Origin: Arenibacter antarcticus
GTDB taxonomy: Bacteria > Bacteroidota > Bacteroidia > Flavobacteriales > Flavobacteriaceae
NCBI RefSeq assembly: GCF_041320605.1
Contig: NZ_CP166679.1
Location: 3,086,001 to 3,150,000, forward strand
DNA length: 64,000 nt
Direction: 5' to 3'
The notes below the pieces were generated by a model. It searched no databases. It was not told where the DNA came from and saw nothing but the letters and a program-made list of their open reading frames with translations. Both the position numbers and the translations under genes were made by a program. This document shows, piece by piece, positions 40,346 through 59,364 of this stretch. Position 1 is the stretch's first letter. Each line of letters begins with the position of its first letter.

Positions 40346-40456
40346 GTTTCTATAGCATCTATTCAATAATGGATTTTACCTTCATTGAAGTTATGAAATT
40401 TTATGAGTGAAGTCATTATAGTCGAAAATCTGTCGGGGATCATTTTGTGTGGTAAC

Positions 40457-40968: not shown

Positions 40969-41353
40969 GATCGTAACTTTTATACTAACAAAGATACCTT
41001 TTTATCTGCTAATTCTGATTCTAACTTAACAGACGGAAGTTCCCCTCTGTATATCCTACGGACGGTGATATCTTCTGGTAATGTCATTTTGTTTCTTTTA
41101 TTTTTGCTTTTAGACCATTTGGCGCATGTCCCAAATTGTGCATTCATGTTGCCATCTTCTGTGTATTCTTAATTAACAAAAACTGTGCAGATTTAATTTC
41201 AGATTACATCTGTATTTATTCTGAGAGTTTTATGGGTTACAATTGGTTGATTCATTTCTTTAAATATAATCCTTAACTGTCCGGTTCTAACGTGGCTAGT
41301 TAATATTAAAATACGGTAGCCTCTTTAGTCCTATATAAGTTCGGAGTCATATC
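40969..41353. other. Intergenic region between TA pair and integrase
   Basis: 385 bp. A 35-codon minus-strand frame (41087-40980, MTLPEDITVRRIYRGELP) has an acceptable ATG but no recognised family. The rest is A/T-rich, with no strong hairpin. It may hold the TA promoter. Confidence 0.35.
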
Positions 41354-42568
41354 TTATATTTCCAATCTTTCCTGATATTCGTCCATTATGTGGGTGGGGA
41401 GGTTTTTGATATATATTTCCGTGGTGCTAATATCACTGTGCCCAAGCATCTTGCTCAGTGCGTTTATGGGAACATCATTGAGAATAAGATTGGTTGCCAT
41501 AGAATGACGACTTACATAGCTTGTTAATCGCTCCTCAATACCACAAAGATGGGCAATCTCTTTTAGACGTTTGTTATATCGTCTTCTTTCCCATTGGATG
41601 TCCTTAAATTGATCATGGATTCCCTTGCGCTTTACAATTGGAAAAATATGGGCGGTTTTGTCCTTGCCTTTTAAATAGTGATCCATAATAGAGGATAACT
41701 GTGGAGTTACCTTAATATCGTAATGTCTGGCGGTTTTTTGTCTGCGGTACTGGATGCGCCCATCAAGGATATTCTCCACTTTTAAAAAGGCCATATCAAT
41801 AAATGAAATACCGTTCATAAGGTAAGAGCACAAAAAATAGTTCCTAGCGTTGAATAATGGGTTATCAGGTTCTAATTCCAAATTAAGGATCCGTCTTATT
41901 TTTTCTATGCTAATGGCCCGTTTTGCCGTTGGTTCGGATTTAATCTTATATTTCTTAAAGGGATAGGAATCCGCTGGCACAATCCCTTGATTGATGGCTT
42001 TGTTATAAATGGCCCTAAATGTTCTCATATACATGGATAACCCATTGATACTATTTCCTTTTTTTAAATGTGCAGTTTCAAACCGTTTAAGATAGGTGTA
42101 GGTCATCTCTTCAAAACGTAGAAACTCCTTTTTGTTGAATTTCTTTAAAGCACCAAGGGAAGATCTATAGGCTTTTGCGTTACCGAATCGATTTGCTTCT
42201 TCCATTTCACCTATCAATTGTTGGGTGAAATCAAATACGGAAATCGTGGATATTGGTCTGGTTAAGGAGTATTTAAGATCGGTTATGCTCAGGCTTTCTA
42301 ATCGACCACTTTCCTCCAACGCATTAATGCCATCCCTTAATTCTGTTTTTTTCTTTGAAAGAAGATTATTTAATCTCGAAACTGAAGACACCCCCTTATA
42401 AGTTTTTTTCACCTCACGATTTTTTTCATTCCAGTATTCGAAGGGAATGACAAACCCAGTTGAGATGGTAATCGTTTTTCGATGATGGCTCAATCTAAAA
42501 ATAATCGGACAGGTGCCATCCTTTCTTTTGCGCCTAGCGTCTATGGAAAGAGTAATGTTTGTCCTCAT
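41354..42568 (-). CDS. int: Tyrosine integrase of the integrative element
   Basis: 404 aa. An N-terminal arm-binding domain (LSIDARRKRKDGTCPIIFRL), a SAM-like core-binding domain (about 105-205) and the catalytic domain with the KTARHYD lysine, YVSRHSMATNLI (Arg), LGHSDISTTEIYIKN (His and Tyr nucleophile). The usual first Arg appears as Asn in YLMNGISFIDM, and the HxxR His as Tyr. IntDOT also lacks the first Arg, so the enzyme may still be active. It lies 146 bp from attR, as expected. Confidence 0.93.
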   Translation of the reverse strand: MRTNITLSIDARRKRKDGTCPIIFRLSHHRKTITISTGFVIPFEYWNEKNREVKKTYKGVSSVSRLNNLLSKKKTELRDGINALEESGRLESLSITDLKYSLTRPISTISVFDFTQQLIGEMEEANRFGNAKAYRSSLGALKKFNKKEFLRFEEMTYTYLKRFETAHLKKGNSINGLSMYMRTFRAIYNKAINQGIVPADSYPFKKYKIKSEPTAKRAISIEKIRRILNLELEPDNPLFNARNYFLCSYLMNGISFIDMAFLKVENILDGRIQYRRQKTARHYDIKVTPQLSSIMDHYLKGKDKTAHIFPIVKRKGIHDQFKDIQWERRRYNKRLKEIAHLCGIEERLTSYVSRHSMATNLILNDVPINALSKMLGHSDISTTEIYIKNLPTHIMDEYQERLEI

Positions 42569-43763: not shown

Positions 43764-43783
43764 TTGATTGACTGTTCAATCAA
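43764..43783. promoter_or_regulatory. BetI-type operator upstream of susC
   Basis: TTGATTGA-CTGT-TCAATCAA is a perfect palindrome with 8-bp arms. It has the form of the proteobacterial BetI site as I recall it (TTGATTGnACGTTCAATCAA). A near-copy lies at 53594-53613 before the TetR gene. A likely -7 box, TATATTTTC (43792-43800), follows, so repressor binding would cover the promoter of susC at 43875. Confidence 0.75.
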
Positions 43784-43874
43784 AATATTTTTATATTTTC
43801 GTAAAAATTTAAGAAATCGTTAACAATACAGTGTTTATCTCCAATCTCGTATCACAATAAAATAATTTATATTT

Positions 43875-46800
43875 ATGAAAAAAGAAGCTAAAAACCGAAC
43901 CCCTTCTCAAGGACGAAACAAGATACTCCTAAGGGGGCTTGTTCTCCTCCTGTTCGTTGGCCATTTAGGATGGGCACAGGAAAAAAATATTACTGGGACC
44001 ATAGTAGACGCAATAAACAAGCTACCCTTGCCTGGAGCAAGTGTTGTTGTGAAAGGGACCACCACAGGTGTGGTTGCTGATTTTGATGGGAATTTTAGTA
44101 TTACCGCCCCATCTCCCCAATCTATATTGGTATTCTCTTATGTAGGTTTTAAGACTTTTGAAATTCAAGTGGGTAGTAAAACTACTTTACGCATTCCAAT
44201 GGAGGAAGAGGCCAGTGCCTTATCCGAAGTAATTGTTACTGCTTTGGGAATCAAAAAGGAAACCAAAGCTCTTGGTTATGCCGTACAAGAGGTAAAGGGA
44301 GAATCCTTAGTAAAGGCCAGAGAGCCAAACGTTGTAAACTCGTTGACAGGAAAAGTAGCTGGACTAACGATAAAGAACAGTTCGGATCTGTTCCAAGACC
44401 CTGGTATCACTCTAAGAGGGCGTTCCCCTCTAGTAGTTATTGATGGAATACCTAGTACTGATAGTGATTTTTGGAAATTGAATGCTGATGACATAGAGGG
44501 AATTAGTGTCCTGAAAGGAGCTACAGCCGCTGCTCTCTACGGTTCCATAGGTAGGGGAGGTGCATTAATGATTACGACTAAAAGAGGTGCCGAAGGTAAG
44601 GTGGCTGTGGATTATAACGTGAGTGTAATGTTTCAGCCTAATTTTATCCGAATCCCAAAGGTCCAAACCACCTATGGTAACGGAAACCGTGGAACCTATG
44701 AATATGTAAACGGTTCGGGTTCTGGAACCGAAGGCGCAGGATGGATATGGGGACCCAAGTTGGACCAACCAGACTCAAGTACCCCAAGTGGTTTATGGGA
44801 AACCCCACAATACAATAGCCCAATTGACCCCATAACAGGAGAAAGGATTCCTATACCTTTTACCTCAAGGGGAAGGGATAATGTGAAAAATTTCTTTGAT
44901 ACGGGAATGATTGTCACGAATAACATTGCCGTAAGTGGAGGCAACGATAAGGGAAATTTTCGGGTGTCCGCATCCCACGTGTATCAAAAGGGTGTCGTTC
45001 CAAATACGGATCTGAAAAATGCTTCCTTTGGAGTGTCAGGTGGTTATAACATTACTGATAATTTAAAAGTGGATGCTTCACTTACCTACAACCGACAGTA
45101 TACCAGAAATTTTCCGGAAGTAGGATACGGCCCATATAATTATCTCTATAATTTGGTGCTTTGGACAGGAACAGATATTGATGTAAGGGATCTTAGGAAT
45201 TATTGGGAAGAAGGTAAGGAAGGCATTCAGCAGCGCCATTTCAATACATCCTGGTACAACAATCCCTATTTTATTGCCCATGAAGCACTCCAAAGTTATT
45301 ATAAGGATAATACTTATGGACAGATAAGCCTTAATTATGATGCCCTTGATGATCTGACCTTTAGCTTAAGATCTGGATTCAATTCCTCTAATCTAAACCG
45401 GGATTGGAAAAGACCCAAAAGTTTTATTGGATATGGCGATGTTTCCAAAGGGGATTTTTTCTTGAGTAATTCCAATACATTTAGTATCAATACCGATATT
45501 TTAGCAACTTATTCTAAGGAAATTGGTAAGGATTTTGGGATTAGTGCTACGGCAGGAGCTTCAAACAGGTATTGGACCAATAGATCCTTGTCTACTAATA
45601 GTGATGGGCTTACGCTACCAGGATTTTACAATTTAAGTAATTCCATAAACCCATTGAGCGGCTCCAACTGGAACGGGGAGGAACAGGTAAACAGTGTTTA
45701 TGCTACTTTGGATTTGGAAATGTTGAATTCCATATACCTAACCATTACAGGTAGAAATGACTGGGTATCTACCTTACCCTTGGAGAATAATTCTTTTTTC
45801 TATCCTTCATTATCTATGTCCGTCATCCTCTCCGATCTTTTGGAGTTCGATAGATCGGCCCCTTTTGTAAAATTGAGGAGTTCATGGGCAAATGTTGGGG
45901 ATGGAAGGTTTCCTGGGAGCGGAGTAACTACCTATAATCATCTGCCCGCCTATAGTTCTGGCACTAGCTGGAACAATCAAGGTTCACTATCCTATCCTGG
46001 GATTTTACCCAATACAGGTTTGCAACCAGCAAATTCCGACACTTTTGAATATGGATTGGACATGCGTTTTTTTGGAAATCGATTGGGTCTTGATGTCGCT
46101 TATTACACCATTACGGATACGAATAATATTGTAAATGTCCCAGTTTCTATTAGTTCGGGCTATAACGCTAAACTGATTAATGGAAATGAATTTGTTAGGG
46201 AGGGTGTAGAAATTGTACTGACTGCAAAACCAATTAAAACCGATAATTTTTCGTGGGATCTGATAACCAACTGGAGTAACAGCCACAGAAGGTTGCAAAG
46301 TACTTTTGATGGGTCAGACCGAATTGGAAATATTAGAGTCGGAACAAGACTCGATCAAATATACCAAACACCGTACCTTAAAACGCCCAATGGACAGTTG
46401 ATCTACGGTCAAAATGGCCTTCCTTTAAATGATACCTTTTCTAGAAAACGGGGTCATTCTGAATCCGATTGGAACTTTGGATTTCAAAATAATTTTAAGT
46501 ATCACAATATTAGTTTAAGTGCTTCTTTGGATGGTAGATTGGGAGGACTTATCTATTCCTCTACCAATCAGAAAATGTGGTGGGGTGGCATGCATCCCGG
46601 TACGGTTAACGAACACAGGGATGCGGCTAACAATGGAGAAGCTACCTATATAGGACCTGGGGTGGTCATTGTGGAAGGTGAGGTTAAATATGACGATCAA
46701 GGAACCATAGTGAACGACACTAGGGTTTATGCCCCTAATACCACCAAGGTCAACTACATTTCCTGGAACCAGGATACTAGTAATGCGTTGTTGGACCATT

Positions 46801-47024
46801 ATTACGATCAGACCTTTGTTAAACTGAGGGAAGTAGTTTTAACCTATGACTTTCCTAATACTATTACTGAGAAATTAGGATGTCAGAGTGCTTCTTTCTC
46901 CTTGGTTGGTAGAAATTTGGCATTGTGGTCCAATTTGCCAAACGTAGATCCCGATTCAGGGTTCGACAATTTACAGACCCCCTCTACAAGAAATATTGGG
47001 TTTAATGTAAATCTGACGTTCTAA
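43875..47024 (+). CDS. SusC/RagA-type TonB-dependent outer-membrane transporter
   Basis: 1049 aa. After a signal peptide (GHLGWAQ) comes a carboxypeptidase-D-like regulatory domain (GTIVDAINKLPLPGASVVVKGT), the SusC box (LSEVIVTALGIKKETKALGYA), a plug (GLTIKNSSDLFQDPGITLRG; PLVVIDGIPSTDSDFWKLNA) and a 22-strand barrel ending NLTF. No STN domain is present, so it is not wired to an anti-sigma factor. It forms the import channel with the SusD protein encoded 38 bp later. The substrate is inferred from neighbours: a choline-containing lipid head group or phosphodiester. Confidence 0.95.
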   Translation: MKKEAKNRTPSQGRNKILLRGLVLLLFVGHLGWAQEKNITGTIVDAINKLPLPGASVVVKGTTTGVVADFDGNFSITAPSPQSILVFSYVGFKTFEIQVGSKTTLRIPMEEEASALSEVIVTALGIKKETKALGYAVQEVKGESLVKAREPNVVNSLTGKVAGLTIKNSSDLFQDPGITLRGRSPLVVIDGIPSTDSDFWKLNADDIEGISVLKGATAAALYGSIGRGGALMITTKRGAEGKVAVDYNVSVMFQPNFIRIPKVQTTYGNGNRGTYEYVNGSGSGTEGAGWIWGPKLDQPDSSTPSGLWETPQYNSPIDPITGERIPIPFTSRGRDNVKNFFDTGMIVTNNIAVSGGNDKGNFRVSASHVYQKGVVPNTDLKNASFGVSGGYNITDNLKVDASLTYNRQYTRNFPEVGYGPYNYLYNLVLWTGTDIDVRDLRNYWEEGKEGIQQRHFNTSWYNNPYFIAHEALQSYYKDNTYGQISLNYDALDDLTFSLRSGFNSSNLNRDWKRPKSFIGYGDVSKGDFFLSNSNTFSINTDILATYSKEIGKDFGISATAGASNRYWTNRSLSTNSDGLTLPGFYNLSNSINPLSGSNWNGEEQVNSVYATLDLEMLNSIYLTITGRNDWVSTLPLENNSFFYPSLSMSVILSDLLEFDRSAPFVKLRSSWANVGDGRFPGSGVTTYNHLPAYSSGTSWNNQGSLSYPGILPNTGLQPANSDTFEYGLDMRFFGNRLGLDVAYYTITDTNNIVNVPVSISSGYNAKLINGNEFVREGVEIVLTAKPIKTDNFSWDLITNWSNSHRRLQSTFDGSDRIGNIRVGTRLDQIYQTPYLKTPNGQLIYGQNGLPLNDTFSRKRGHSESDWNFGFQNNFKYHNISLSASLDGRLGGLIYSSTNQKMWWGGMHPGTVNEHRDAANNGEATYIGPGVVIVEGEVKYDDQGTIVNDTRVYAPNTTKVNYISWNQDTSNALLDHYYDQTFVKLREVVLTYDFPNTITEKLGCQSASFSLVGRNLALWSNLPNVDPDSGFDNLQTPSTRNIGFNVNLTF

Positions 47025-47062
47025 ATTAAAATTGCATAAAGAGAAAAACTAAAAAAAAATCG

Positions 47063-48523
47063 ATGAAAACATTAAAAATAATTTTGAGTATTCTCCTAAT
47101 ATCCTCTTTAGGCGGCTGTAAGAAGTATGATGATTATCAATCGGATCCCAATAGAACCACAGAAGGGGATCCCGGGTTGTTACTCACTAATATCCAGGTC
47201 AGTGTAAGTGGAATGGTAACCTTAAGTGCGGCAATGTCTTCTAGGCAAATGGTAAATACCGATGGCTCTGATAACAATCAATATTATGGATGGCAACGTG
47301 CAGGTTTTGGAAATTACAATATGCTTAGGCAGGTTCTTAAAATGGAGGAAGAGGCCAAGCTTATAGACAATACCAACTATTTGGCCTTGGGTAAATTTTT
47401 TAGGGCATGGCTCTTTTTATCCCTTACCAATACCTTTGGAGATGTCCCATACAGTAAGGCATTGCAGGGAGAATTGGATGCTTTTACGCCTGCTTATGAC
47501 CGACAGGAAGATATTTACTTGGCTATTTTGAACGACCTTAAAGAGGCCAATAATATGATAAGTGCCGACAATGGTATTGTAAATGGCGATGTGATCTACG
47601 GCGGTGATCTGGAAAAATGGAAAAAGGCGATCAACTCTTTAAGTTTAAGGACCCTAATCTCCCTATCAAGAAAAGAAGGAAACACAAAGATCGGGGTAAT
47701 AAATAGATTTCAAGAGATTGTTGGGAGTCCGGCGCAATATCCAATATTTACCTCAAATGCCGATAGTTTTGCCTTGCCGTACTATGAAATTGATGGTAAT
47801 GAATACCCCTATTTTAATAGTAATAGTATTAAAACGGCCTATTATTTTGAAGAGTCATTTGTAAATATGCTAAAAGGTTTGGAGGATCCGAGGTTATTTA
47901 CTTTTGCCGATCGCGAATTCAATGGCAAAGATCTTCCTGAAGATGATTTTAATGCCTATGGTGGTCTGGGTGGAAGTGATCTGTTGTCTGACAATACTGG
48001 TCGTCTTTCCAATGGAGAGGGGTCACCAATAGACAGTAGGTACTATGACGACCCTGAAAATGAACCGGCAATTGGTTTGGGTTATGCAGAAATCGAATTT
48101 ACTTTGGCTGAAGCAGCTGCACGTGGATGGATCGGTAATGATCCTGAAGACCATTACAAAAAAGGAATTGTGGCATCCATGTTATTTTATGATTTTAATC
48201 AGGCCACTATCGACGCATATCTGCAAAAAAACCAAGTGCAGTACCTTCCTCAACAAGGTGTGGAGATGATCATCACACAAAAATATATCTCATTTTTTAT
48301 GAATTCGGGTTGGGAGCTATTCTATAATCAGCGTAGAACAGGTTTCCCTGAATTTGCTACAGATGGGGGCGGAATTCTTAATGGAGGCCAAATCCCAAAG
48401 CGATGGATGTATCCTGAAAGTGAAATAATTTATAATAATGAGAGCCTACAGGCTGCAATATCCCAGCAATTTCCTGAAGGAGATAACGTTAACGGTGAAA
48501 TGTGGTTGCTAAAAACGGAGTGA
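47063..48523 (+). CDS. SusD/RagB-like surface lipoprotein (SusD-like_2 type)
   Basis: 486 aa with lipobox SLGGC (Cys19). It has the SusD-like TPR frame: YLALGKFFRAWLFLSLTNTFGDVPYSKAL, then DLEKWKKAINSLSLRTLISLSRKEG, and the C-terminal RRTGFPEFATDGGGILNGGQIPKRWMYP. SusD proteins cap the SusC barrel and bind substrate on the cell surface. The pairing and gene order with susC are standard. Confidence 0.93.
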   Translation: MKTLKIILSILLISSLGGCKKYDDYQSDPNRTTEGDPGLLLTNIQVSVSGMVTLSAAMSSRQMVNTDGSDNNQYYGWQRAGFGNYNMLRQVLKMEEEAKLIDNTNYLALGKFFRAWLFLSLTNTFGDVPYSKALQGELDAFTPAYDRQEDIYLAILNDLKEANNMISADNGIVNGDVIYGGDLEKWKKAINSLSLRTLISLSRKEGNTKIGVINRFQEIVGSPAQYPIFTSNADSFALPYYEIDGNEYPYFNSNSIKTAYYFEESFVNMLKGLEDPRLFTFADREFNGKDLPEDDFNAYGGLGGSDLLSDNTGRLSNGEGSPIDSRYYDDPENEPAIGLGYAEIEFTLAEAAARGWIGNDPEDHYKKGIVASMLFYDFNQATIDAYLQKNQVQYLPQQGVEMIITQKYISFFMNSGWELFYNQRRTGFPEFATDGGGILNGGQIPKRWMYPESEIIYNNESLQAAISQQFPEGDNVNGEMWLLKTE

Positions 48524-48628
48524 GCCTAAACCCTTAACCCCTAGTAGAACGATAATAGTTATCATAATGACTGTCAGATGGTTGATCGGGATTAGTATTG
48601 ACATTTAGAAATCAATAAAAATAAATAA

Positions 48629-49474
48629 ATGAAAAATTATAAATTTTTGATAGCTCTTGCGGTATCTATCTTGTGCTTGTCATGCAGCGATGATGATTCG
48701 GCCATCTCGGATCCTATATTTGAATTTGTTTCGTTTCAGAACGAAACAATGACAGTAAACGAAAATGGTGCCAGTATAAAGCCCGTGCCGGTGGTTCTTT
48801 CTCTCTTAAGTTATGAAACCTCCGAGGATGTTACAGTCACCTTAGGAGTTGTTGATACCAATGTGCAGGAAGGAACAGATTATAACCTATCTTCCAAATC
48901 GGTGGTATTTAAGAAAGGAAGCTTTGTTTCCGATACCGTGTATGTCAGTACCATAGACAATAGCATTGGGGCTGATGAAGAACGCAGTTTTGAAATTAAT
49001 ATCGAAAGTGTAAGTAACCCCGATATCAAAATTGGTTTGGGTATTGCAAATCCTAAAAAAGCATCCTTAAAAGTGATCATAGCGGACGATGAGTGTACAG
49101 AAACCACCGCTGTGTTTAATTCAGGGAACTTAACAAATATTACTGAGTTTGGTACTCACACCATAACAGGGACGGTAAGTGGTGATAAGATGACCTTAAA
49201 GGGTGACCTGATAACCTATGGTGCTTTCCCAAATGCAACTCTAGATATAGTTCTAACACCCATAAGTACTGGTGCTACGAAAGGTAGTGCCACATTTGAA
49301 GATTTCGGAGCAGGAACCGATAATGATGGGTATGAATACCAATTTAGACAAACGGGGGAAGGAGCTTATGACGTCTGTTCGGGCGAGATTACTATAAGTT
49401 TTAACGTATACTATGAAGATGGAGGTTCGTGGGTGTTTTGGTATGCTTCCAATAATATTATAACCATTCCATAA
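48629..49474 (+). CDS. Surface lipoprotein with Calx-beta-like domain
   Basis: 281 aa with lipobox SILCLSC (Cys19). Residues about 30-150 form a Calx-beta-like domain (VQEGTDYNLSSKSVVFKKGSF; IDNSIGADEERSFEINIESV). The C-terminal half is beta-rich with no name. Proteins at this place in a SusCD locus usually bind substrate on the surface. Confidence 0.75.
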   Translation: MKNYKFLIALAVSILCLSCSDDDSAISDPIFEFVSFQNETMTVNENGASIKPVPVVLSLLSYETSEDVTVTLGVVDTNVQEGTDYNLSSKSVVFKKGSFVSDTVYVSTIDNSIGADEERSFEINIESVSNPDIKIGLGIANPKKASLKVIIADDECTETTAVFNSGNLTNITEFGTHTITGTVSGDKMTLKGDLITYGAFPNATLDIVLTPISTGATKGSATFEDFGAGTDNDGYEYQFRQTGEGAYDVCSGEITISFNVYYEDGGSWVFWYASNNIITIP

Positions 49475-49504
49475 AAATTGTAGTTTGGTGTATTTTTTAT
49501 TATA

Positions 49505-49537
49505 GAAGGAAGGGGGAGGTTATCTTCCTTCCTTTTT
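49505..49537 (+). terminator. Rho-independent terminator
   Basis: GAAGGAAG (49505-49512) and CTTCCTTC (49524-49531) pair, followed by C and five T. It separates the SusCD/lipoprotein genes from the two phosphodiesterases, probably with partial read-through. Confidence 0.65.
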
Positions 49538-49561
49538 AATGTTCCATTAAATTGTATACGA

Positions 49562-50671
49562 ATGAAACGACTTCTATCCTTCTCGATAGTTCTTTCTGTT
49601 TTTCTAGTCTTTATAGGGTGCAATACTTTTAAAAAGGACAAGGAAATGGTTGTGAATTTAACGGAATCCGATCTGGGAGCGGAAATGCATTTTGATGGTT
49701 CGTTTACTGTGCTTCAATTTAATATCTGGCAAGAGGGAACTATTGTTCCTGGAGGGTTTAACGCCATTGTTGATGAGGTAATCCAGGCCAATGCTGATTT
49801 AGTAGCCTTGAGCGAGGTAAGGAATTATAACAATGAAAGCCTTGCAAAACGTTTGGTCGATGCACTTGCCAATAAAGGGCATACCTACTATTCCAAGCGA
49901 AGCGAGGATTCAGGAATTCTTTCAAAATTCCCGATTATTTCCCAAGAAGTCTTGTATCCATTGAAAAATGATCGTGGTACCATAACAAAAGCAATTATTA
50001 AAGTTGCTGGCATACAAATCGCATTCTACAGTACCCATCTAGACTATACCCATTATGCCTGTTATTTACCACGGGGCTATGACGGGATTACCTGGGAAAA
50101 ATTAGCTGCGCCCATGTTGGAGGTCGATAAAATATTGGAACAGAACTTGGCTTCGGAGCGGGATGAAACTATTGCCATTTTTGTTAATGATGCTTTAAAA
50201 GAAAAAGATAACGGTAATTTAGTGCTGTTAGGAGGGGATTTTAATGAACCTTCACATTTAGATTGGGGTGAGGAGTCCAAGGACCTGTTCGACCACAATG
50301 GAACTGTAGTACCATGGCATAACAGTATAGTTATGCAGAATAAGGGTTTTTTAGATGCCTATCGCCTAAAATATCCTGACCCCGTTTCCCATCCCGGATT
50401 AACATGGGCCGCCAACAACACCGATGTACCAATAGATAAATTGGCATGGACCCCAAAAGCAGACGATAGAGATCGGATAGATTTTATATACTTCTACCCA
50501 GATGAAAGACTGGAATTAATGGATGTAATTTTGGTGGGGCCTATAGGTGGTATAGCTTATGGGAAAAGGATAACCACCAATCCTGGTCAAGATAAATTTC
50601 TGGAGCCGAAAGGTGTTTGGCCCTCCGATCATAAAGGTGTTTTTGCTACTTTTAAGATAAAAACATTTTGA
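49562..50671 (+). CDS. Endonuclease/exonuclease/phosphatase-family phosphodiesterase, lipoprotein
   Basis: 369 aa with lipobox VFIGC (Cys20). The DNase-I fold (EEP) has LQFNIWQEG, the metal Glu in LVALSEVRN, the THLDYTHYACY loop, GGDFNEPSHLDW (Asp-Asn pair), RIDFIYFYP and the final WPSDHKGVF (Asp-His). EEP enzymes include neutral sphingomyelinases and phospholipase C-like enzymes as well as nucleases. Surface attachment, the SusCD neighbours and choline oxidation genes favour a lipid or phosphodiester substrate. The specificity cannot be read from the sequence. Confidence 0.88.
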   Translation: MKRLLSFSIVLSVFLVFIGCNTFKKDKEMVVNLTESDLGAEMHFDGSFTVLQFNIWQEGTIVPGGFNAIVDEVIQANADLVALSEVRNYNNESLAKRLVDALANKGHTYYSKRSEDSGILSKFPIISQEVLYPLKNDRGTITKAIIKVAGIQIAFYSTHLDYTHYACYLPRGYDGITWEKLAAPMLEVDKILEQNLASERDETIAIFVNDALKEKDNGNLVLLGGDFNEPSHLDWGEESKDLFDHNGTVVPWHNSIVMQNKGFLDAYRLKYPDPVSHPGLTWAANNTDVPIDKLAWTPKADDRDRIDFIYFYPDERLELMDVILVGPIGGIAYGKRITTNPGQDKFLEPKGVWPSDHKGVFATFKIKTF

Positions 50672-50708
50672 AATAAGTCGATCTAGAAACTAAAAACCAC
50701 CCATTAAA

Positions 50709-51635
50709 ATGAAACGTATTCCTATTATTGTTGGCCTCTTGTTAGTTGTTTTCTGTGGAAGATCACAAGAGCGCCCCGTAATATTTAAGGTAATGGCATG
50801 GAATATTCTTCATGGTGCCAACGATATTGAAAATGGGCCACAGAATGCAATTGAGATTATTAAGGAAATAAATCCAGATGTAATTTTAATGGTAGAAACC
50901 TATGGCTCTGGGAAAAGGATTGCCGATTCTCTTGGATATAATTTTCATCTAATAGCTGCTAAGGGTACTGCTTTAGATGATAAGGGAGTTAATTTATCCA
51001 TTTTTTCCAGATTTCCGTTCGGGGAACGAATCGATACGGAATATCCATTTTATTTAGGAGGTAGAGAAATTTTTGTGCGAGGTCATAAAATTAGATTTTT
51101 TTCCAATTGGTTCCATTACCTGCCTTGGAGCGATGAGCCAGAGGGAATGGGCAAGACTGCTGAGGAATTGTTGGTATGGGAAAAAACGGGAGCCAAATAT
51201 GAAATGATTCAAAAAGTGCTTCCATATATCAAAAAGTATTCAACTGAAACAGATTCCATACCCATGATCTTTGGTGGCGATTTAAATACACCCTCCCATT
51301 TGGATTGGGGAAGTGAGACTAAAGATATACATAACGGTTTAGAGGTTCCGTGGTACAGTACCAAGGTTTTGGAAGATGTAGGCCTTTTGGATTCCTATAG
51401 AATGTTAAACCCAGACCCGATTGCTTCTCCAGGCATTACATGGAATACGAAGGGAAAAACGGATAGCCACAGGATAGACTATATATTTTTCAAAGGTCCC
51501 AAATTAAGGGCCATTAAATCGGAGTCTCACCAGGCTTTTTTAAATGCCCCATTGGTCATTAACGGAAAGACAATTCCCTATCCTTCCGATCATGGATTTG
51601 TGGTCACTACATTTCAGCTTTTGGATTTAAGATAG
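50709..51635 (+). CDS. Endonuclease/exonuclease/phosphatase-family phosphodiesterase, secreted
   Basis: 308 aa with a signal peptide (VVFCGRSQ). It is a paralogue of the preceding gene with the same catalytic set: MAWNILHGAN, ILMVETYGSGKRI, WFHYLPW, GGDLNTPSHLDW, RIDYIFFKGP and PSDHGFVVT. The His in YPSDHG is intact. It starts 37 bp after the first enzyme. Two non-identical enzymes suggest sequential or different bonds, for example diacyl and lyso or glycero forms; that is inference. Confidence 0.88.
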   Translation: MKRIPIIVGLLLVVFCGRSQERPVIFKVMAWNILHGANDIENGPQNAIEIIKEINPDVILMVETYGSGKRIADSLGYNFHLIAAKGTALDDKGVNLSIFSRFPFGERIDTEYPFYLGGREIFVRGHKIRFFSNWFHYLPWSDEPEGMGKTAEELLVWEKTGAKYEMIQKVLPYIKKYSTETDSIPMIFGGDLNTPSHLDWGSETKDIHNGLEVPWYSTKVLEDVGLLDSYRMLNPDPIASPGITWNTKGKTDSHRIDYIFFKGPKLRAIKSESHQAFLNAPLVINGKTIPYPSDHGFVVTTFQLLDLR

Positions 51636-51983
51636 TAAACCTAGATAGGACGGTTTCTAGTTTTCTAACAAAAAATGTTACTGAAGTCTCCTAGATTATC
51701 TCCCATTAAAAACAGGCTTCGTAGTTTTCCATTACTTTATTCTTGATGCATCTGGTTATTCAACCTGTTTTTCAGGATTATAGGGCTGGAAGCACGGTAC
51801 TATATATTTCCTCGCTTGCTATTGCCGTGCCTCTGATCAGGCAGCCTCTTTTAATACTATAGGAGTATATTACTGTGTTTTTTAAATTCGTAGCCAAACC
51901 TAATATATACCTATATAAAAAGCGTCCAATGAACTTTGGTAGCTCTGGCAACTTCTAATAAGCTAATGTTTTATCAATTTGCA
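51636..51983. other. Intergenic region with a fragment of a TetR-like HTH
   Basis: A 348-bp convergent gap after the second phosphodiesterase and before the minus-strand NPP-type gene. Apart from the HTH fragment at 51911-51970 I see no ORF. A possible hairpin lies around 51794-51826 (GCACGG...CCGTGC). Confidence 0.4.
51911..51970 (-). pseudogene. Short fragment of a TetR/BetI-like HTH gene
   Basis: On the minus strand, NISLLEVARATKVHWTLFI is preceded and followed by stops. It aligns without gaps to NTSLVKVAKAIRVNTSLVL of the remnant at 43593-43730 (8 or more identical positions out of 19, most others conservative). It is a second decayed HTH copy at the other side of the SusCD/phosphodiesterase block. 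Confidence 0.45.
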
Positions 51984-53219
51984 TCATTTTTTAATCGCCC
52001 ATGTATTGGTGGCATTGTGTTTGCCTTTAAGGACAATCTTGTAAAAATCTGATGGAATTTTAGATACGTCGATGGTTATTTTTTCTTTACCTGACTTCAC
52101 TTTTTCCAAAAGATCATAGCTATCCACCTCGCCTTTTCCAAAATTGTTGGTGGTAGTGATCCAGATTTCGAGATTCTCACTTGGCCCCATAGCCTTCCAT
52201 GTGAGCTCTAGTTTATTTTCCCTTAAGGTTGCCTTGGCATGGGCTACGGAAATTTTTCCGATGAGCGGAACGCCATCTATTTCCCACAACTGTTCCTTTT
52301 TCGGTTGGATGTCTAGGGCTCGTAACATTGTGGGCACGATATCTACGATTCCAGGGTTGTCTTGTTTAAAATAGGGGTTCAGGTCTTTTGCATTGGTGAC
52401 GATCCAAGTGCTGCGTTCTCTGTCGCTCTGACCACCGTGACCTTTTCCGTCTTTTACGTTTCTCCCATGGTCTGTTGTGATCCACAGTTGCCAATCCTCA
52501 TCATAATTTTTGTTCCGGTATTCAATAGCATCCCATAGCCGACCTATTTGGTCGTCCATTGTTTTTATAGCATCGTAGAACTGTTCGCTGTCCCCGTACA
52601 TGTGGCCCATATCGTCAGTGAATTGAAGATATATCCAAGAAAGTTCTGGGCCTTCTGCCTGAATGTATTTGGCAGCTTCGTTGGTTACATGTTCGTCTAT
52701 CTTGTGGATATATTGGCGATCCTTGCCGTGGGGGAAAGCAATCGTATCTAGCTCAAATCCGTCAAAATGGTAGTCCAATTTTAAGTTTCCCGTGGCTGGC
52801 AGTTCTTCCCCTACTAATTTCGTCCTATTGTCTAACCAAGTAGAAAAGATGGCTGTTTTTAGTTCTGGACGGTTTTCCTTCGCAAAACGAAAGATGGACC
52901 AATAGTTATAATTAGGATTTTTTATCCCGTTGCCCCATACATTGTGTTTATTGGCCCAGGTAGCCGTAAGCAAACTATTGTATCCCACTGCTGAAATGGT
53001 TGGAGTTTCCGAGTAGCCGTCTTTTTCGCCCCCCATATATGAACGGGTATAGCCTCCTTTGTGCGCAATGGCGTCTAAGTTGGGAGTATGTATTTTCTCT
53101 AGTACATCGGCTGAAATACCATCAACGATAGCGAACAATACTTTTGTGCCTTTCTTTTGGGCAGATGTCAAATTGAACGCCAACAGACAGATAATCAGGT
53201 ATTTGATTGTGTTTTTCAT
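51984..53219 (-). CDS. Alkaline phosphatase-superfamily phosphodiesterase (NPP/ENPP type), exported
   Basis: 411 aa with a signal peptide (NLTSAQ). Metal ligands and nucleophile follow the NPP order: VDGISADV (Asp), ETPTISAVGYNSLLTA (Thr nucleophile), FTDDMGHMYG (Asp and His), ITTDHGRN (Asp-His) and KGHGGQ (His). ENPP6-type enzymes of this family cleave glycerophosphocholine and lysophosphatidylcholine to phosphocholine. That would fit the locus, but nucleotide or alkyl-phosphate substrates cannot be excluded. The C-terminal 80 residues are a beta domain. It is oriented against the phosphodiesterase genes. Confidence 0.87.
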   Translation of the reverse strand: MKNTIKYLIICLLAFNLTSAQKKGTKVLFAIVDGISADVLEKIHTPNLDAIAHKGGYTRSYMGGEKDGYSETPTISAVGYNSLLTATWANKHNVWGNGIKNPNYNYWSIFRFAKENRPELKTAIFSTWLDNRTKLVGEELPATGNLKLDYHFDGFELDTIAFPHGKDRQYIHKIDEHVTNEAAKYIQAEGPELSWIYLQFTDDMGHMYGDSEQFYDAIKTMDDQIGRLWDAIEYRNKNYDEDWQLWITTDHGRNVKDGKGHGGQSDRERSTWIVTNAKDLNPYFKQDNPGIVDIVPTMLRALDIQPKKEQLWEIDGVPLIGKISVAHAKATLRENKLELTWKAMGPSENLEIWITTTNNFGKGEVDSYDLLEKVKSGKEKITIDVSKIPSDFYKIVLKGKHNATNTWAIKK

Positions 53220-53252
53220 TTTTATTTCGAATTTAAACTAAACAATTTAACT

Positions 53253-53609
53253 TTATTTTTTTTTTGGTCGAAAAAAGATTCCGAAAATTTTGGACCTCTC
53301 TAATCTTTTCTTAATACTACTAGTGTTTAACCTTTGCCAGAGTTTATATAATTTGGTTTCAGTTCTTTTCGCTTCTTCGATCATTTTTATTTTGCTGCGA
53401 TATCCTACGTATGACGCGCTGACTAAAAACAACTTCAGGACTAAACCCAATATAACTTCGGAGTTCTTCTGCACATCGAGAAGTATTCCTTGAGTTTCCT
53501 CTGCAAAATAGTCCGTGAGTTTAAAAATCACAAGGTTATTTCCTGACGGTTGAAGGGATGTTAATCGACCGACGCCTAAATTAATAAAATATTTTGATTG
53601 AATGACCAA
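53253..53609 (-). CDS. Doubtful ORF, Lys-rich C-terminus
   Basis: 118 codons from a TTG inside the BetI-type operator, so the full length is unlikely to be translated. The part from MIEEAKRTETKLYKLWQ onward is a basic helix. One hydrophobic stretch (VILGLVLKLFLVSASYVGY) could be a membrane segment. I recognise no family. Confidence 0.25.
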   Translation of the reverse strand: MVIQSKYFINLGVGRLTSLQPSGNNLVIFKLTDYFAEETQGILLDVQKNSEVILGLVLKLFLVSASYVGYRSKIKMIEEAKRTETKLYKLWQRLNTSSIKKRLERSKIFGIFFRPKKK

Positions 53610-53613
53610 TCAA
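53594..53613. promoter_or_regulatory. BetI-type operator upstream of the TetR gene
   Basis: TTGATTG-AATGAC-CAATCAA shares its arms with the operator at 43764-43783 (TTGATTG...CAATCAA, 20-bp site). It lies 52 bp before the ATG of the TetR gene. Autoregulation by binding its own promoter is normal for BetI. A -7-like TAATATTG follows at 53631. Confidence 0.72.
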
Positions 53614-53665
53614 TTTAAATTCTATTTTATTAATATTGTAAAAGTATATTATTTATATCCATAGT

Positions 53666-54289
53666 ATGGGAAGAAAAAGTTTGAAGGATGTTCGGCAAAA
53701 GGAGATTGTCGAAGCTTTTTATAAGGTGGCACGTAGGGAGGGTCTAATACACGCTTCGATGGCTAAGGTGGCAAGGGAAATGGGGATTAATTCCAGTTTG
53801 GTATCCCATTATTTCGGATCCAAGAATGCCTTGATTTTTGGGCTTATAAAATTTATACTTGAATCCTATAAGAATTTTTACACTTTAGAGTATGTGGAGG
53901 CGGAGTATGGATCTCGGCTGAAAAATATTATTGACAACCTATTCTCTAGGGAATGGAACAATTTGATAGATGATGAGGTATTTTATGACTGCTTTACCTT
54001 GGTATTCCGCGATAAGAATATTAAGGCTGCATACAAAGAATTGCACGAACATTTGAGAGCATGGCTTACAGAGGCCATTGAGGAGGCTAAACAAAACGGG
54101 GAGGTGCAAGTAGACAACCCTGAGAGTGCGGCAGACCTTATTTTTATTTTGGTGGAAGGTTCGTATTACTATCTCTCCATGTACGATAAGGGGGAAGAGT
54201 ATTGCAAAAAACAGAACCGATATAAGCATGCCGCTATGGATATCCTAAAATTCGAGGATCTAGATAGTGTCGCACCTCAAATCGAATAA
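53666..54289 (+). CDS. betI: TetR-family regulator, BetI-like
   Basis: 207 aa. The N-terminal HTH (ASMAKVAREMGINSSLVSHYFGSKNALIFGLI) has the SLVSHYF...K recognition helix of BetI proteins, and the C-terminal domain has the length and the helix SAADLIFILVEGSYYYLSMYD expected of the ligand pocket. BetI represses choline-to-betaine genes until choline is present. Its operator-like palindrome precedes the gene, and betB, betA and the transporter follow on the same strand. The symbol rests on similarity, context and operator, not on a BLAST result. Confidence 0.82.
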   Translation: MGRKSLKDVRQKEIVEAFYKVARREGLIHASMAKVAREMGINSSLVSHYFGSKNALIFGLIKFILESYKNFYTLEYVEAEYGSRLKNIIDNLFSREWNNLIDDEVFYDCFTLVFRDKNIKAAYKELHEHLRAWLTEAIEEAKQNGEVQVDNPESAADLIFILVEGSYYYLSMYDKGEEYCKKQNRYKHAAMDILKFEDLDSVAPQIE

Positions 54290-54426
54290 AGGGATTTGTA
54301 AGGCGGATAAAATAGACACTATTGTAGTCAAGTGTTAGGTAATTAAACGGGATTGGAAAAAATTCTCGCGGGCACTTGGAAGTGATATAATTATTGAAAT
54401 AGTATATTAAAATTAAAGGAGAATCG

Positions 54427-55887
54427 ATGGTAGAGCAAAATTCATTTTTATATTATGATGGGGCGAAACGTGAGGCAACATCCGACCGGTATTTTGACAA
54501 TATTAATCCGGCTACAGGAAAGTTGACCCATACAATACGGTCTGCCTCTGCTGATGACGTAGAAGCGGCGGTGAGGTCCGCAGCATCCGGGTTTCAAGTT
54601 TGGTCTGCCATGTCGCCAACGGAACGTGGCCGCATTCTTCGAAAAGCAGCCGAGATATTACGCTCCAGAAACGAAGAAATCGCCAAAATTGAAGTAGAGG
54701 ATACAGGGAAGCCACTTTCAGAGGCTATTTCGGTGGATATCCATTCGGGAGCCGATGCCTTGGAATATTATGGAGGAATTGCCGCTTCCCTCCATGGGGA
54801 ACATTACGATTTAGGTGGAAGCTTTGCTTACACCCGAAGGGAGCCTTTGGGGATATGTGCAGGGATAGGGGCATGGAACTATCCGGTGCAGATTGCATGC
54901 TGGAAATCTGCTCCTGCCTTGGCCTGCGGTAATGCTATGATCTTTAAGCCTGCGGAACTCACCCCCCGCTCTGCGGTATTGCTAGCTGAAGTATTTACAG
55001 AGGCCGGTCTGCCAGACGGAGTGTTCAACGTGGTACAGGGCGAGGCCGAAGTTGGCCAGATGTTAACCCGCCATCCCAAAATACGTAAGGTCTCCCTGAC
55101 AGGAGAAGTGGGAACCGGTAAAAAAGTAATGGCCGATGCCGCTGCTACTCTGAAACATGTCACCTTGGAACTAGGAGGCAAGTCACCCTTGATCATATTT
55201 GACGATGCAGATTTGGATGAGGCCGTAAATGGTGCGATGTTGGCCAATTTTTATACTCAAGGAGAAATCTGCTCCAATGGGACCCGTGTTTATGTGGCTG
55301 AATCCGTGAAAGCGAGTTTTTTGGAAAAGTTGGTAGCCAAGACCAAGCAATTAAAACTGGGTGATCCCATCGAGATGGACACGCAGGTTGGTGCTTTGAT
55401 CAGTGAGGGGCATTTGAAAAAAGTCCTTAATTATATTGAACAGGGGAAAAAGGAGGCTAAACTAATTATAGGCGGAGATCGTCGTACTGATGTTGAGGGG
55501 TGTTATGGTGGTTATTTTGTAACTCCTGCTATTTTTGAAGCCAATGAGGAATCGGCCAGTATTGTTCAGGAGGAAATTTTTGGTCCGGTAATGACGGTTT
55601 TGACGTTTAAAGAGGAAAAGGAAGTTGTGCAACGTGCCAATGACACTATCTATGGTTTGGCAGCCGGAGTATTTACCCGTGACTTGGCAAGGGCACACCG
55701 AGTAGTACATCAATTAGAGGCTGGGATGTGCTGGATCAATAATTACAACATCACTCCGGTAGAAATACCTTTTGGACCTTATAAGCAATCCGGGATGGGC
55801 AAAGAGAATGGTCTTGCCACCTTGAATGCTTACAGCCAGTTAAAAACAATTTATGTGGAAATGGATAAGATCGATAGTCCTTATTAA
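54427..55887 (+). CDS. betB: Betaine aldehyde dehydrogenase
   Basis: 486 aa, NAD(P)-dependent aldehyde dehydrogenase. [24 protein letters not shown] is the BetB-type cofactor region; LELGGKSP has the general-base Glu (about 248), and [14 protein letters not shown] has the nucleophilic Cys (about 281). The end [16 protein letters not shown] is also typical. It oxidises betaine aldehyde to glycine betaine, the second step from choline. A good Shine-Dalgarno (AAAGGAGA) precedes the ATG. Confidence 0.93.
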
Positions 55888-56093
55888 ATCCCAAATTGAA
55901 CAAATAAATTTCAATAAACTAACCTAGCATAAATGAGCATTAACCAATTTTGGGAATCAATTCTTAAAAAGGGGATGTTCAAAAATTTTTATTCGAGAAC
56001 AAGATAGTTATACACGTTCTCAGCCTGCCCAACCAGCCCTTAAGGCAGGATTTTAATTAGTTTATCATCAAATAATGACAAAAATCTAAACGT

Positions 56094-57713
56094 ATGAATT
56101 ACGATTATATAATAATTGGCGGGGGTTCTGCAGGATCTGTACTTGCCAATAGGCTAAGTAAAGACCCAACCAACCTAGTTCTGGTCCTAGAAGCAGGTAG
56201 GCCTGATTATCGGTTCGACTTTCGAATCCACATGCCTGCCGCACTTAGTTATTTATTAACAGGGACGTTCTATAATTGGGGATATTCCTCCGATCCAGAG
56301 CCTTTTATGAACCAACGTAGAATCGCTCAGCCCAGGGGCAAGGTGTTGGGGGGCTCCAGTTCCATAAACGGAATGATCTGGATCCGAGGTAATAAGGGGG
56401 ATTACAATAAATGGGCAAAGGAAAAGGGATTAGGCCATTGGGACTATGCGCATGTGCTGCCTTATTTTAAAAAATTGGAGACACGGCTTGTAGGTCCAGA
56501 CAAATACCATGGGGATAAAGGCCCTTTAAAACTCACAACCCCAAAAAACGAAAATCCGTTGTTCAAGGCGTTTTTCGAATCGGTCCAAGAAGCCGGATAT
56601 CCTTTGACCGATGATGTTAACGGGGCTCAGCAAGAAGGCTTTGGTAAGTTCGACCAAACAATATACCAGGGAAGACGGCGTAGCGCCGCGCGTTCCTATC
56701 TACATCCCGTAAAAAACAGACCCAACCTAACGGTACATACCAAGGCAATGGTCCACAGGATTCTTTTTGATGGAAAAAAGGCCGTAGGCGTGGAATACAA
56801 AAAGGGCGGAAAAATGTTTAAGGCCGAGGCCTCAAGTGAGGTGATTTTATGTGGAGGGGCCATTAATTCGCCACAATTGCTTCAACTCTCGGGGATAGGA
56901 GATGCGGATGAATTAAAGCACCACGGCATTCCAGTTGTCCAAAATTTGCCAGGCGTTGGCGCAAACCTGCAAGACCATTTGGAGGTCTATATGCAATGGG
57001 CCTGCAAGGAACCTATAAGCGAGTACCCCAATCTTAGCCCCTGGCGAGCTCCAAAAATTGGGCTAGATTGGCTTTTTCGACGTAAAGGTCCGGGCGCCAC
57101 TAATCACTTTGAGGCAGGAGGGTTTATCAAAAGTAGAAAGGAAAAACCCTATCCAGACCTTCAATACCACTTTTTACCGTTAGCCATCCGGTACGATGGC
57201 TCCGCCCCGTCTGAAGGCCACGGCTTTCAGTTGCACGTGGGTCCGATGAATACAGATGTCAGTGGGCATGTAAAGATTAAGTCCTCTGATCCTTACGAAG
57301 CGCCATCCATCCTGTTCAATTACTTATCTACCCAACAGGAACGGGAGGATTGGGTTGCTGCCGTTAGAAAGACCAGAGAGTTGATAGAAACTTCCGCTAT
57401 GGAAAAATACAGAGGCAAGGAAATATCGCCTGGAAAATCGGTACAGACCGAAGAAGAGATCTTGGATTGGGTTGCACGGGAAGGGGAAAGTGCATACCAC
57501 CCCAGTTGTACCTGTAAGATGGGACTAGATGATATGGCAGTAGTAGATGACGAGCTTAGGGTTCACGGGGTGCAAAATCTTAGAGTGGTAGATGCGTCCG
57601 TTATGCCTTCTATTACCAATGGCAATATCTATGCTCCCGTTATGATGATCGCTGAAAAAGCGGCCGACCTCATTCTTGGGCATCCCACCTTGCCTCCCGA
57701 AACAGGAGTATGA
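56094..57713 (+). CDS. betA: Choline dehydrogenase
   Basis: 539 aa GMC flavoenzyme. YIIIGGGSAGSVLANRL is the FAD motif; QPRGKVLGGSSSINGMIWIRG and GAINSPQLLQLSGIG are the GMC signatures 1 and 2. The catalytic pair is His in YHPSCTCKMG (about 468) and the Asn/His region in NGNIYAPVMMIAEKAADLI. BetA oxidises choline to betaine aldehyde and further. The 206-bp gap upstream contains a GC hairpin (CCTGCC...GGCAGG, about 56023-56049). Confidence 0.94.
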   Translation: MNYDYIIIGGGSAGSVLANRLSKDPTNLVLVLEAGRPDYRFDFRIHMPAALSYLLTGTFYNWGYSSDPEPFMNQRRIAQPRGKVLGGSSSINGMIWIRGNKGDYNKWAKEKGLGHWDYAHVLPYFKKLETRLVGPDKYHGDKGPLKLTTPKNENPLFKAFFESVQEAGYPLTDDVNGAQQEGFGKFDQTIYQGRRRSAARSYLHPVKNRPNLTVHTKAMVHRILFDGKKAVGVEYKKGGKMFKAEASSEVILCGGAINSPQLLQLSGIGDADELKHHGIPVVQNLPGVGANLQDHLEVYMQWACKEPISEYPNLSPWRAPKIGLDWLFRRKGPGATNHFEAGGFIKSRKEKPYPDLQYHFLPLAIRYDGSAPSEGHGFQLHVGPMNTDVSGHVKIKSSDPYEAPSILFNYLSTQQEREDWVAAVRKTRELIETSAMEKYRGKEISPGKSVQTEEEILDWVAREGESAYHPSCTCKMGLDDMAVVDDELRVHGVQNLRVVDASVMPSITNGNIYAPVMMIAEKAADLILGHPTLPPETGV

Positions 57714-57756
57714 AAAACTATAAACTCCACAAAATAACTAATAAAGCCAATCCCCT

Positions 57757-59364
57757 ATGTTTGACCATAAAACGATAAAGACGTTACTACCTACACTATA
57801 CCTCATTCTGGCATTGACTTTGGCCGGTGCATATCTTTATCTATTTACGGATTCTCCCGTTTTTTGGCCCGGCTTTATAGCCATGATATTTTTTTACGGG
57901 CTAATTTTTTATATGGGGACGTATGCGGCCACTATGCGGCAATCTGGAAGTGGGGCAGACGATATCTTGTTGGCGGGGAGGAGTATTCCCCTATGGATAG
58001 GAATCTTTACGATGAGCGCCACATGGGTGGGCGGTGGTTACATCAACGGGGCCGCCGAATATACATACGACAGTAATTATGGCCTAATGTGGGTGCAGGC
58101 ACCATGGGGCTATGGACTAAGCCTCATAATTGGTGGCCTGTTCTTTGCTAGGAAAATGCGACGATTTCGTTTCAAGACCATACTCGATCCACTATCACAA
58201 CGGTATGGCAAAAAAATGACGGTACTTCTCTATTTTCCAGCTTTGTTGGGTGAAATATTCTGGACCGCTGCCATATTAACCGCTTTAGGAGCAACATTTG
58301 CCACTATTCTCGGTCTGGATATACGAACAGCCATTGTAATGTCTTCCCTGATAGCGATCGCTTATACGGCCATTGGAGGAATGTGGGCGGTGGCATTGAC
58401 GGATGTAGTGCAACTTTGTCTGCTAATTTTTGGATTGATAATGGTAATCCCGTTTGCACTCGATCAAGTAGGAGGATGGGATCTTGTCTGGAGTAAGTAC
58501 CAATCAAATATGGGTGATATGGCACATTTCCTGCCCACAAAGGAAGCGTTGGGTGATTATTATTATAATTGGTGGGATTTTGCCCTTCTCCTTGTTTTTG
58601 GAGGTATTCCGTGGCAGGTTTACTTTCAGCGGGTCTTATCTTCCAAAAATGAAAAGACTGCCATGCGGTTGTCCATTATTGCAGGCTTTGTCTGTATCCT
58701 TGCAGCTATACCGCCTGTAATGATCGGAATGATCGGCCAGTCGGTTGAGTCATGGGAGGCATTTGGAGCGCCAGGTCCTCCAGAAAACTCCGCATTGATA
58801 CTTCCATATGTAGTACGCTATCTAACGCCAAGTGTTGTAGCCACTATTGGTCTCGGTGCCATTGCCGCCGCTGTAATGTCCTCCGTGGATTCCTCTATAC
58901 TCTCAGCATCCTCTATGACCAGTTGGAACGTTTACCGACCAATTTTTAAACCAAAGGTGTCGAACGAAGGTCTAGCAAAGGTGATTAAACGGTGTATCTG
59001 GATCATTGGAATTGCAGCTACCTTATTGGCACTCAACATTACCAGTGTTTACGCATTGTGGTTCCTATGTAGTGATTTTGTCTATGTATTACTGTTCCCA
59101 CAACTGGTTACCGCATTGTTTTTTAAGAAGGCAAATTTCATCGGATCCTTGGCTGGATTTATAGTCAGCTTTATTTTGCGCTTTGGTGGCGGAGATGCTA
59201 CTTTGGGTATTCCCATACTTCTAGACTACCCCATGACGCAGGGTGGAGAAGTGCTATTTCCGTTTAGAACCTTTGCAATGGCCTCAGGGATGATTACTAT
59301 CTTTGTAGTTTCCTTGATTACGCAAAAATGGTACCCTCCAAAACCTTTAAAAATCGTAACGTAA
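57757..59364 (+). CDS. Sodium/choline symporter resembling animal CHT1 (SLC5A7)
   Basis: 535 aa with about 13 membrane helices, an SSS-family symporter. The segments LAGRSIPLWIGIFTMSATWV, GGGYINGAAEYTYD, PALLGEIFWTAAIL, GGIPWQVYFQRVLSS and AAVMSSVDSSILSASSM follow the neuronal high-affinity choline transporter CHT1 almost residue for residue as I recall it, far more than they follow proline or glucose members. It would import choline made outside the inner membrane. It is 44 bp after betA, in one operon. Confidence 0.85.
   Translation: MFDHKTIKTLLPTLYLILALTLAGAYLYLFTDSPVFWPGFIAMIFFYGLIFYMGTYAATMRQSGSGADDILLAGRSIPLWIGIFTMSATWVGGGYINGAAEYTYDSNYGLMWVQAPWGYGLSLIIGGLFFARKMRRFRFKTILDPLSQRYGKKMTVLLYFPALLGEIFWTAAILTALGATFATILGLDIRTAIVMSSLIAIAYTAIGGMWAVALTDVVQLCLLIFGLIMVIPFALDQVGGWDLVWSKYQSNMGDMAHFLPTKEALGDYYYNWWDFALLLVFGGIPWQVYFQRVLSSKNEKTAMRLSIIAGFVCILAAIPPVMIGMIGQSVESWEAFGAPGPPENSALILPYVVRYLTPSVVATIGLGAIAAAVMSSVDSSILSASSMTSWNVYRPIFKPKVSNEGLAKVIKRCIWIIGIAATLLALNITSVYALWFLCSDFVYVLLFPQLVTALFFKKANFIGSLAGFIVSFILRFGGGDATLGIPILLDYPMTQGGEVLFPFRTFAMASGMITIFVVSLITQKWYPPKPLKIVT

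Follow-up and report, generated by a model that had tools for sequence, protein, structure and literature searches.

The question raised by this locus is why genes for SusC/SusD (SusCD) outer-membrane import should stand beside, and share a DNA site with, genes for the uptake and oxidation of choline. The locus lies at positions 43,764-59,364 of a 64,000-nucleotide stretch of Arenibacter antarcticus DNA (contig NZ_CP166679.1, 3,086,001 to 3,150,000; hereafter the window), from a genome of 4.69 Mb in one contig. When the window was read from its letters alone (the sequence-only reading), a choline-lipid utilisation locus was proposed, in which SusCD and secreted phosphodiesterases are joined to a CHT1-like transporter and to BetB and BetA. 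All of the named genes were found in the order and span given there, and family scans matched the families claimed; two corrections concern a phosphodiesterase gene of the NPP type, which is on the minus strand, and a Calx-beta gene (48629-49474), which had not been named. From left to right, the plus strand carries an operator, susC, susD, the Calx-beta gene and the genes of two EEP-fold proteins (EEP1 and EEP2); the NPP gene follows on the minus strand, and a second operator, a TetR regulator gene, betB, betA and a symporter gene complete the locus on the plus strand. Coupling of the SusCD and phosphodiesterase genes to the choline regulon is well supported by the sequence comparisons below. 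The locus is most likely a choline-induced version of the organophosphorus SusCD (PusCD) systems known from Flavobacterium, and we consider it probable that it works as a choline-induced scavenging system for choline phosphodiesters. The earlier interpretation as a whole is partly supported.

The shared operators that had been claimed were confirmed. The pattern TTGATTGAnTGnyCAATCAA was matched with zero mismatches at 43764-43783 and 53594-53613 (both plus strand), and these are the sole exact sites in the genome. The copy before susC (TTGATTGACTGTTCAATCAA) holds the intact core ATTGAnnnnTCAAT and resembles the published betI box, whose consensus is fitted by the footprinted BetI1 site of Ruegeria, ATTGACGCGTCAAT (PMC12442346). 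The copy between the NPP and TetR genes (TTGATTGAATGACCAATCAA) is a betI-box-type operator beside the bet genes, one mismatch from the symmetric core. When up to three mismatches were allowed on both strands of the whole genome, 16 matches were found versus 6 for a reversed control pattern; the window held 5 versus 0.35 expected, a number reached in 0 of 100 shuffles, these five arising from two places, each read more than once through overlap or on both strands. No operator was found ahead of betB, betA or the symporter gene in the window. Of 9 gene starts checked, 6 have a putative -33 TTG element within the operator, a weak signal with degenerate -7 elements. The intergenic gaps from susC through EEP2 do not exceed 105 bp and that between betA and the symporter gene is 43 bp, so that, with one operator type, the locus likely consists of two transcription units plus the NPP gene. 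That susCD and the bet genes would form one regulon is supported by the shared betI-like operator, which also makes the claim of a choline regulon cheap to test.

Genomes and loci used for comparison are cited by G and L numbers; family labels in neighbour regions come from models built for this analysis or from N-terminal likeness, unless the protein itself was scanned. With 0-1 mismatch, the operator occupies the space that separates susC from the regulator gene in G080 (L018), Cerina litoralis (L020) and G520 (L099); in Arenibacter sp. F20364 (G551, L021) it stands before the regulator gene. Relatives of the regulator (53666-54289, plus strand) are 83, 78, 62, 45 and 43 % identical in L020, L021, G080, G520 and L043, respectively. 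A blind scan of 149 family genomes recovered the exact symmetric site from three, namely both genomes with a CHT locus (our own included) and G105, in whose 3-kb locus no bet or susC gene was seen; co-occurrence of the symmetric operator and the CHT locus gave a Fisher P of 2.7e-4. Among 395 phylum genomes, the site was present in two, our own and G207, where it sits among genes that by eye resemble respiratory chain subunits.

The symporter (57757-59364, plus strand) belongs to PF00474 (141.6 bits versus a cut-off of 22.8), and the claim that it is CHT1-like held well: its nearest match is sfCHT, a bacterial protein of proven choline transport (E 9.2e-191), followed by the nerve choline transporter human CHT1 (E 4.3e-121), while the next kind, glucose symporters, reached E 4.9e-16. 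It shares 58.5 % identity with sfCHT over 509 aligned residues and keeps 10 of 10 checked residues (R84, W99, Y126, W176, A220, W298, Q303, R304, S307 and W445), which the sfCHT paper assigns to the pocket, the tunnel and the cytoplasmic site (PMC13220886). As the aromatic choline cage and the gate residues of sfCHT of Salimicrobium flavidum and human CHT1 are kept (PMC13220886, PMC11589582), and CHT proteins (SLC5A7-like) are the closest sequences, the protein very likely transports choline. CHT-like proteins are rare, with 2 of 149 family genomes and 8 of 395 phylum genomes carrying one (E 1e-100, our own counted). By family assignment, BetB (54427-55887) is a betaine-aldehyde dehydrogenase, with a divided result at the cut-offs, and BetA (56094-57713) a choline dehydrogenase, both on the plus strand. 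BetB scored 767.9 bits for NF009725 (cut-off 593) and narrowly below the cut-off for TIGR01804 (654.8 versus 668.6), and BetA scored 831 bits for TIGR01810 (equivalog cut-off 732.1). Three BCCT transporters are found in the genome, and PF00848, which we take to be the family of the Rieske betaine demethylase, has no match in it, this being the one demethylation route searched; it is therefore more likely that betaine would accumulate as an osmolyte than that it would be consumed for carbon, with osmoprotection as the likelier end.

When 33 CHT-like loci, the window included, were compared, 13 were near a phosphatidylcholine-synthase-like gene, seven had betA and SusCD, two betA only, two SusC without betA, and nine none of these, several of the nine lying on short contigs. 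SusCD was thus present at 7 of the 9 loci with adjacent betA, and labelled SusC at 0 of the 13 synthase-type loci within the available DNA. The association of betA with SusCD was significant (Fisher 5e-4 with and 1.4e-3 without the window, shared descent ignored) in tables of nine betA loci versus 21 others, from which L022, L024 and L036 were dropped for short flanks; short flanks on one side also affect part of the 21 and part of the 13 synthase-type loci. In these tables SusC was scored absent at L026, where it lies 6.5 kb off, and present in the window, though it ends there 10.7 kb from the symporter gene. Chance co-location of SusCD and bet-CHT genes was rejected on the Fisher tests; the tree requires four changes of the bet-plus-SusCD label.

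SusCD adjoins bet and CHT genes in G080, L020, L023, L027, L043 and G314. In G263 and G478 it adjoins CHT with no bet genes, the G478 contig breaking off inside SusC. NPP genes recur with SusCD and bet or CHT genes in G080 (72 %), L027 (57 %), G263 and G314, L027 being a metagenome-assembled contig filed under Thalassobius and probably mis-binned; metallophosphoesterases recur in L023, L043, G263 and G314. In G520, NPP, regulator, SusC, SusD and metallophosphoesterase genes occur together, and no CHT-like gene passes the cut-off used. The point that SusCD should be conserved with bet genes elsewhere, on which the sequence-only reading could have failed, was therefore not refuted, and NPP likewise accompanies them in other lineages.

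SusC, a TonB-dependent outer-membrane transporter of 1049 amino acids (43875-47024, plus strand; TIGR04056, 554 bits versus 368), has relatives 56 % (G080) and 52 % (G520) identical, beside the same regulator type. SusD (47063-48523, plus strand) is a lipoprotein of PF12771 (284.7 bits versus 27), and the plus-strand Calx-beta lipoprotein, found by family scan, is probably a SusE-like surface binding protein. A relative of the latter (48 % identical) is found in the bet locus of Cerina litoralis, whose SusC and SusD belong to another family than those of the window despite this shared protein. Because two SusD families are involved (PF12771 in the window, G080 and G520; PF07980 in L020, L027, L043 and G263), the SusCD partners of CHT/bet loci are, as judged by these families, not one inherited block. 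SusC is common (at least 33 to 37 matches per genome), so single neighbourhoods mean little. Neither a glycoside hydrolase nor a lipase family was found among the ten locus proteins scanned. With no carbohydrate-active enzymes among these ten, the locus does not qualify as a polysaccharide utilisation locus; SusCD with phosphodiesterases and without carbohydrate enzymes is the composition of a PusCD-type organophosphorus system.

The NPP-type phosphodiesterase (51984-53219, minus strand; PF01663, 57.8 bits versus 23) has an N-terminus that is signal-like by eye. Its predicted metal residues, Ser76 and Tyr80 are invariant in 9 of 9 aligned sequences, and Ser76, the predicted nucleophile, aligns with the residue that we take to be the nucleophile Thr of XaNPP and ENPP7. 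Among the ENPPs, ENPP6 is the only one for which a Ser nucleophile is reported (PMC4757880); in it Tyr75, four residues on, helps to hold choline. Both proteins are of the NPP family, with a Ser nucleophile (predicted here) and Tyr80 at the distance of Tyr75, a match by spacing only; in contrast to ENPP6, the window protein has Ala77 for Tyr72 and Gln for Glu190, the latter equivalence also by spacing (PMC4757880). Of the ENPP6-type features, the Ser and the Tyr75 equivalent are therefore present, and a Tyr72 equivalent and ENPP6 as the closest match are absent. In L086, with SusCD close by, an NPP relative adjoins a match to HpnW (TIGR03364, 439 versus 285 bits), a PhnX-like protein (TIGR03351, 192 versus 219, below the cut-off) and a Phn-HD protein (TIGR03276, 214.1 versus 214.6, just below); L087 and L088 resemble it in NPP, SusCD and aminoethylphosphonate genes by N-termini only. 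These neighbours hint that the NPP context points to amine-headgroup phosphorus compounds in general. A DUF5690 protein is also found in L086-type loci and may be their inner-membrane transporter. In a SusCD-CHT locus (L056, 873-3308), a protein of 811 amino acids without a Pfam match lies between the NPP and metallophosphoesterase genes, and L093 has one of equal length whose N-terminus is similar.

EEP1 (49562-50671) and EEP2 (50709-51635), both on the plus strand, belong to PF03372 (52.0 and 54.8 bits versus 24.5) and are 29 % identical; by eye, their N-termini are lipoprotein-like and signal-like, respectively. The core residues of EEP1 (N54, E85, D226, N228, D356 and H357) are invariant in the alignments. 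EEP2 is without the His of the HL motif, which the other six of seven aligned EEPs keep, and may be inactive or altered. When each EEP was searched against PDB using phmmer, nothing was found at 0.001. AlphaFold models were poor, with a mean predicted local distance difference test of 50 for NPP (2 sequences) and 42 for EEP1 (3 sequences). Close EEP1 relatives were found in 3 of 395 genomes (our own counted); the one in L109 (G493) lies by SusCD, and L107 (G489) has one next to GH30 and a second EEP. In L107 (7223-10634), the GH30-family glycosidase is flanked by two EEP proteins. GH30 includes glucosylceramidases, and this set hints at sphingolipid use there.

Compared with published systems, the window locus joins the PusCD kind to the bet kind. 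As in PusCD of Flavobacterium, SusCD is accompanied by phosphodiesterases instead of glycosidases, several unrelated SusD types occur and some lie beside phosphonate genes; PusCD responds to phosphate depletion, whereas here a betI-like operator stands in the susC promoter region and CHT, BetB and BetA are coupled to the set (PMC8115612). The word choline is absent from the main text of that paper. As in the bet regulons (betI-betBA with BetT, and Ruegeria with two BetI), a TetR regulator lies by choline oxidation genes and the core ATTGAnnnnTCAAT is shared; unlike them, the window has a CHT-type symporter in place of the BCCT protein BetT and a regulator outside the BetI cut-offs, and its regulon apparently takes in outer-membrane SusCD and phosphodiesterases as well (PMC12442346). 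In our literature searches, which covered few subscription papers and no preprints, no SusCD-choline system was found. The locus, if the proposal holds, would extend SusCD systems from sugars and phosphate to a choline regulon.

In the scheme that we propose, SusC and SusD, aided by the Calx-beta lipoprotein, would capture a choline-bearing phosphoester and bring it in; a phospholipid, lysolipid or glycerophosphodiester is the likeliest candidate. NPP, and perhaps the EEPs, would cut it, on the cell surface or within the periplasm, to release choline or phosphocholine; in the latter case a phosphatase from outside the locus would be required. The CHT-type symporter, on strong homology, would carry choline into the cytoplasm with Na+, and BetA and BetB, on family assignment, would oxidise it to glycine betaine, probably for osmoprotection. 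The TetR/BetI-like repressor, presumably bound at both operators, would silence susCD and the bet genes as long as choline is absent. The lipid nature of the substrate and the division of work among the enzymes are proposals.

Several observations weigh against this scheme. The CHT gene is found in just 2 of 18 genus genomes (E 1e-100, our own counted), and G551 of the same genus (L021/L059) has the regulator, BetB, BetA, CHT and operator without SusCD, EEP or NPP in the 36 kb searched; L026 has BetBA-CHT with just one SusC, 6.5 kb away. No operator with fewer than three mismatches was found in the checked regions of L043, L023, L026, L027, G314 and G263, among which the regulator gene is visible in the available DNA only for L043, where the best operator-like site has three mismatches and precedes betB. 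The regulator, which had been called BetI, is of the TetR family with a BetI-like N-terminal half and a TetR_C_37 C-terminus, and scored 60.8 and 59.2 bits versus curated BetI cut-offs of 201.3 and 118; since it fails these, it is BetI-like by DNA site and position and not proven BetI. The NPP profile did not favour the choline-specific ENPP6 (E 0.0025), with ENPP7, XaNPP and ENPP5 among those ranked above it. NPP relatives (22 of 395 genomes, our own counted) also occur without bet genes, and 11 of 20 fetched NPP regions had no labelled SusC nearby by our own SusC models, so that NPP has no fixed link to SusCD. The weakest point of the scheme is the EEPs. Their conservation with bet genes elsewhere, which had been expected, was not borne out except for one distant EEP (27-30 % identical) in L043, and no bet gene was labelled near the EEP1 relatives with SusCD (L109) or GH30 (L107). 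In the EEP profile search, exonuclease III-type structures were best (E 3.5e-7) and no sphingomyelinase was found among the best 60 of 79 matches (E up to 1), as would suit nucleases that serve phosphate or nucleoside uptake outside choline release. We regard this role as rather doubtful, as short core matches are not informative on substrate, the EEP genes continue the run of genes that starts with the operator and susCD, no gap exceeding 105 bp, and L043 shows an EEP in another bet locus.

The substrate could also bear choline without being a lipid; SusCD might take up glycerophosphocholine, or a glycan or polymer decorated with phosphocholine. Oligomers are the usual cargo of SusCD systems, NPP-type and EEP enzymes are able to cut many phosphodiesters, and no lipase family was among the ten proteins scanned; set against the missing glycoside hydrolase in the same ten proteins and the occurrence of the NPP family by aminoethylphosphonate genes, a headgroup known from lipids, this substrate appears unlikely. 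Alternatively, the SusCD-phosphodiesterase part could be a phosphate-scavenging system which merely lies beside a bet operon, choline having no role in its control or as its substrate. Low phosphate induces the phosphodiesterase-bearing PusCD clusters described from Flavobacterium (PMC8115612), L086 has NPP and SusCD by aminoethylphosphonate genes, and G551 has bet-CHT without SusCD. The operator, however, precedes susC here and lies in the shared intergenic region of three other genomes with different gene orders, and the pairing of SusCD with bet/CHT genes recurs with different SusD families, which makes such independence very improbable.

Beyond choline-induced scavenging in this one genome, we tentatively raise the possibility of a Bacteroidota class of headgroup-lipid loci, in which SusCD and NPP are joined either to a choline regulon (BetI-like operator, CHT and BetBA) or to aminoethylphosphonate degradation, as in L086. 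If so, outer-membrane SusCD import would serve osmoprotection and the use of phospho- and phosphonolipid headgroups, not sugar use.

The CHT neighbourhoods also bear on the roles of prokaryotic CHT homologues, which are called unclear in the sfCHT paper (PMC13220886); genome context here suggests two, betaine making and phosphatidylcholine synthesis, and choline for the former would come from scavenged esters. The phosphatidylcholine-synthase-like gene lies within 3.5 kb of CHT in L028-L035, L037, L039, L051, L053 and L055, mostly Saprospiraceae; the L030 protein was scanned and scored below the curated cut-off (174 versus 300 bits), and the others were labelled by a model built from it. This context at 13 of 33 loci suggests choline import for phosphatidylcholine synthesis as a second role of bacterial CHTs and also points to choline as their substrate.

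An open reading frame at 53253-53609 matched no family above cut-off and is regarded as a doubtful gene. To the left of the locus, genes for a MobB-type relaxase and a tyrosine recombinase (38060-42568) end about 1.2 kb from the susC operator, and the choline locus may border a mobile element.

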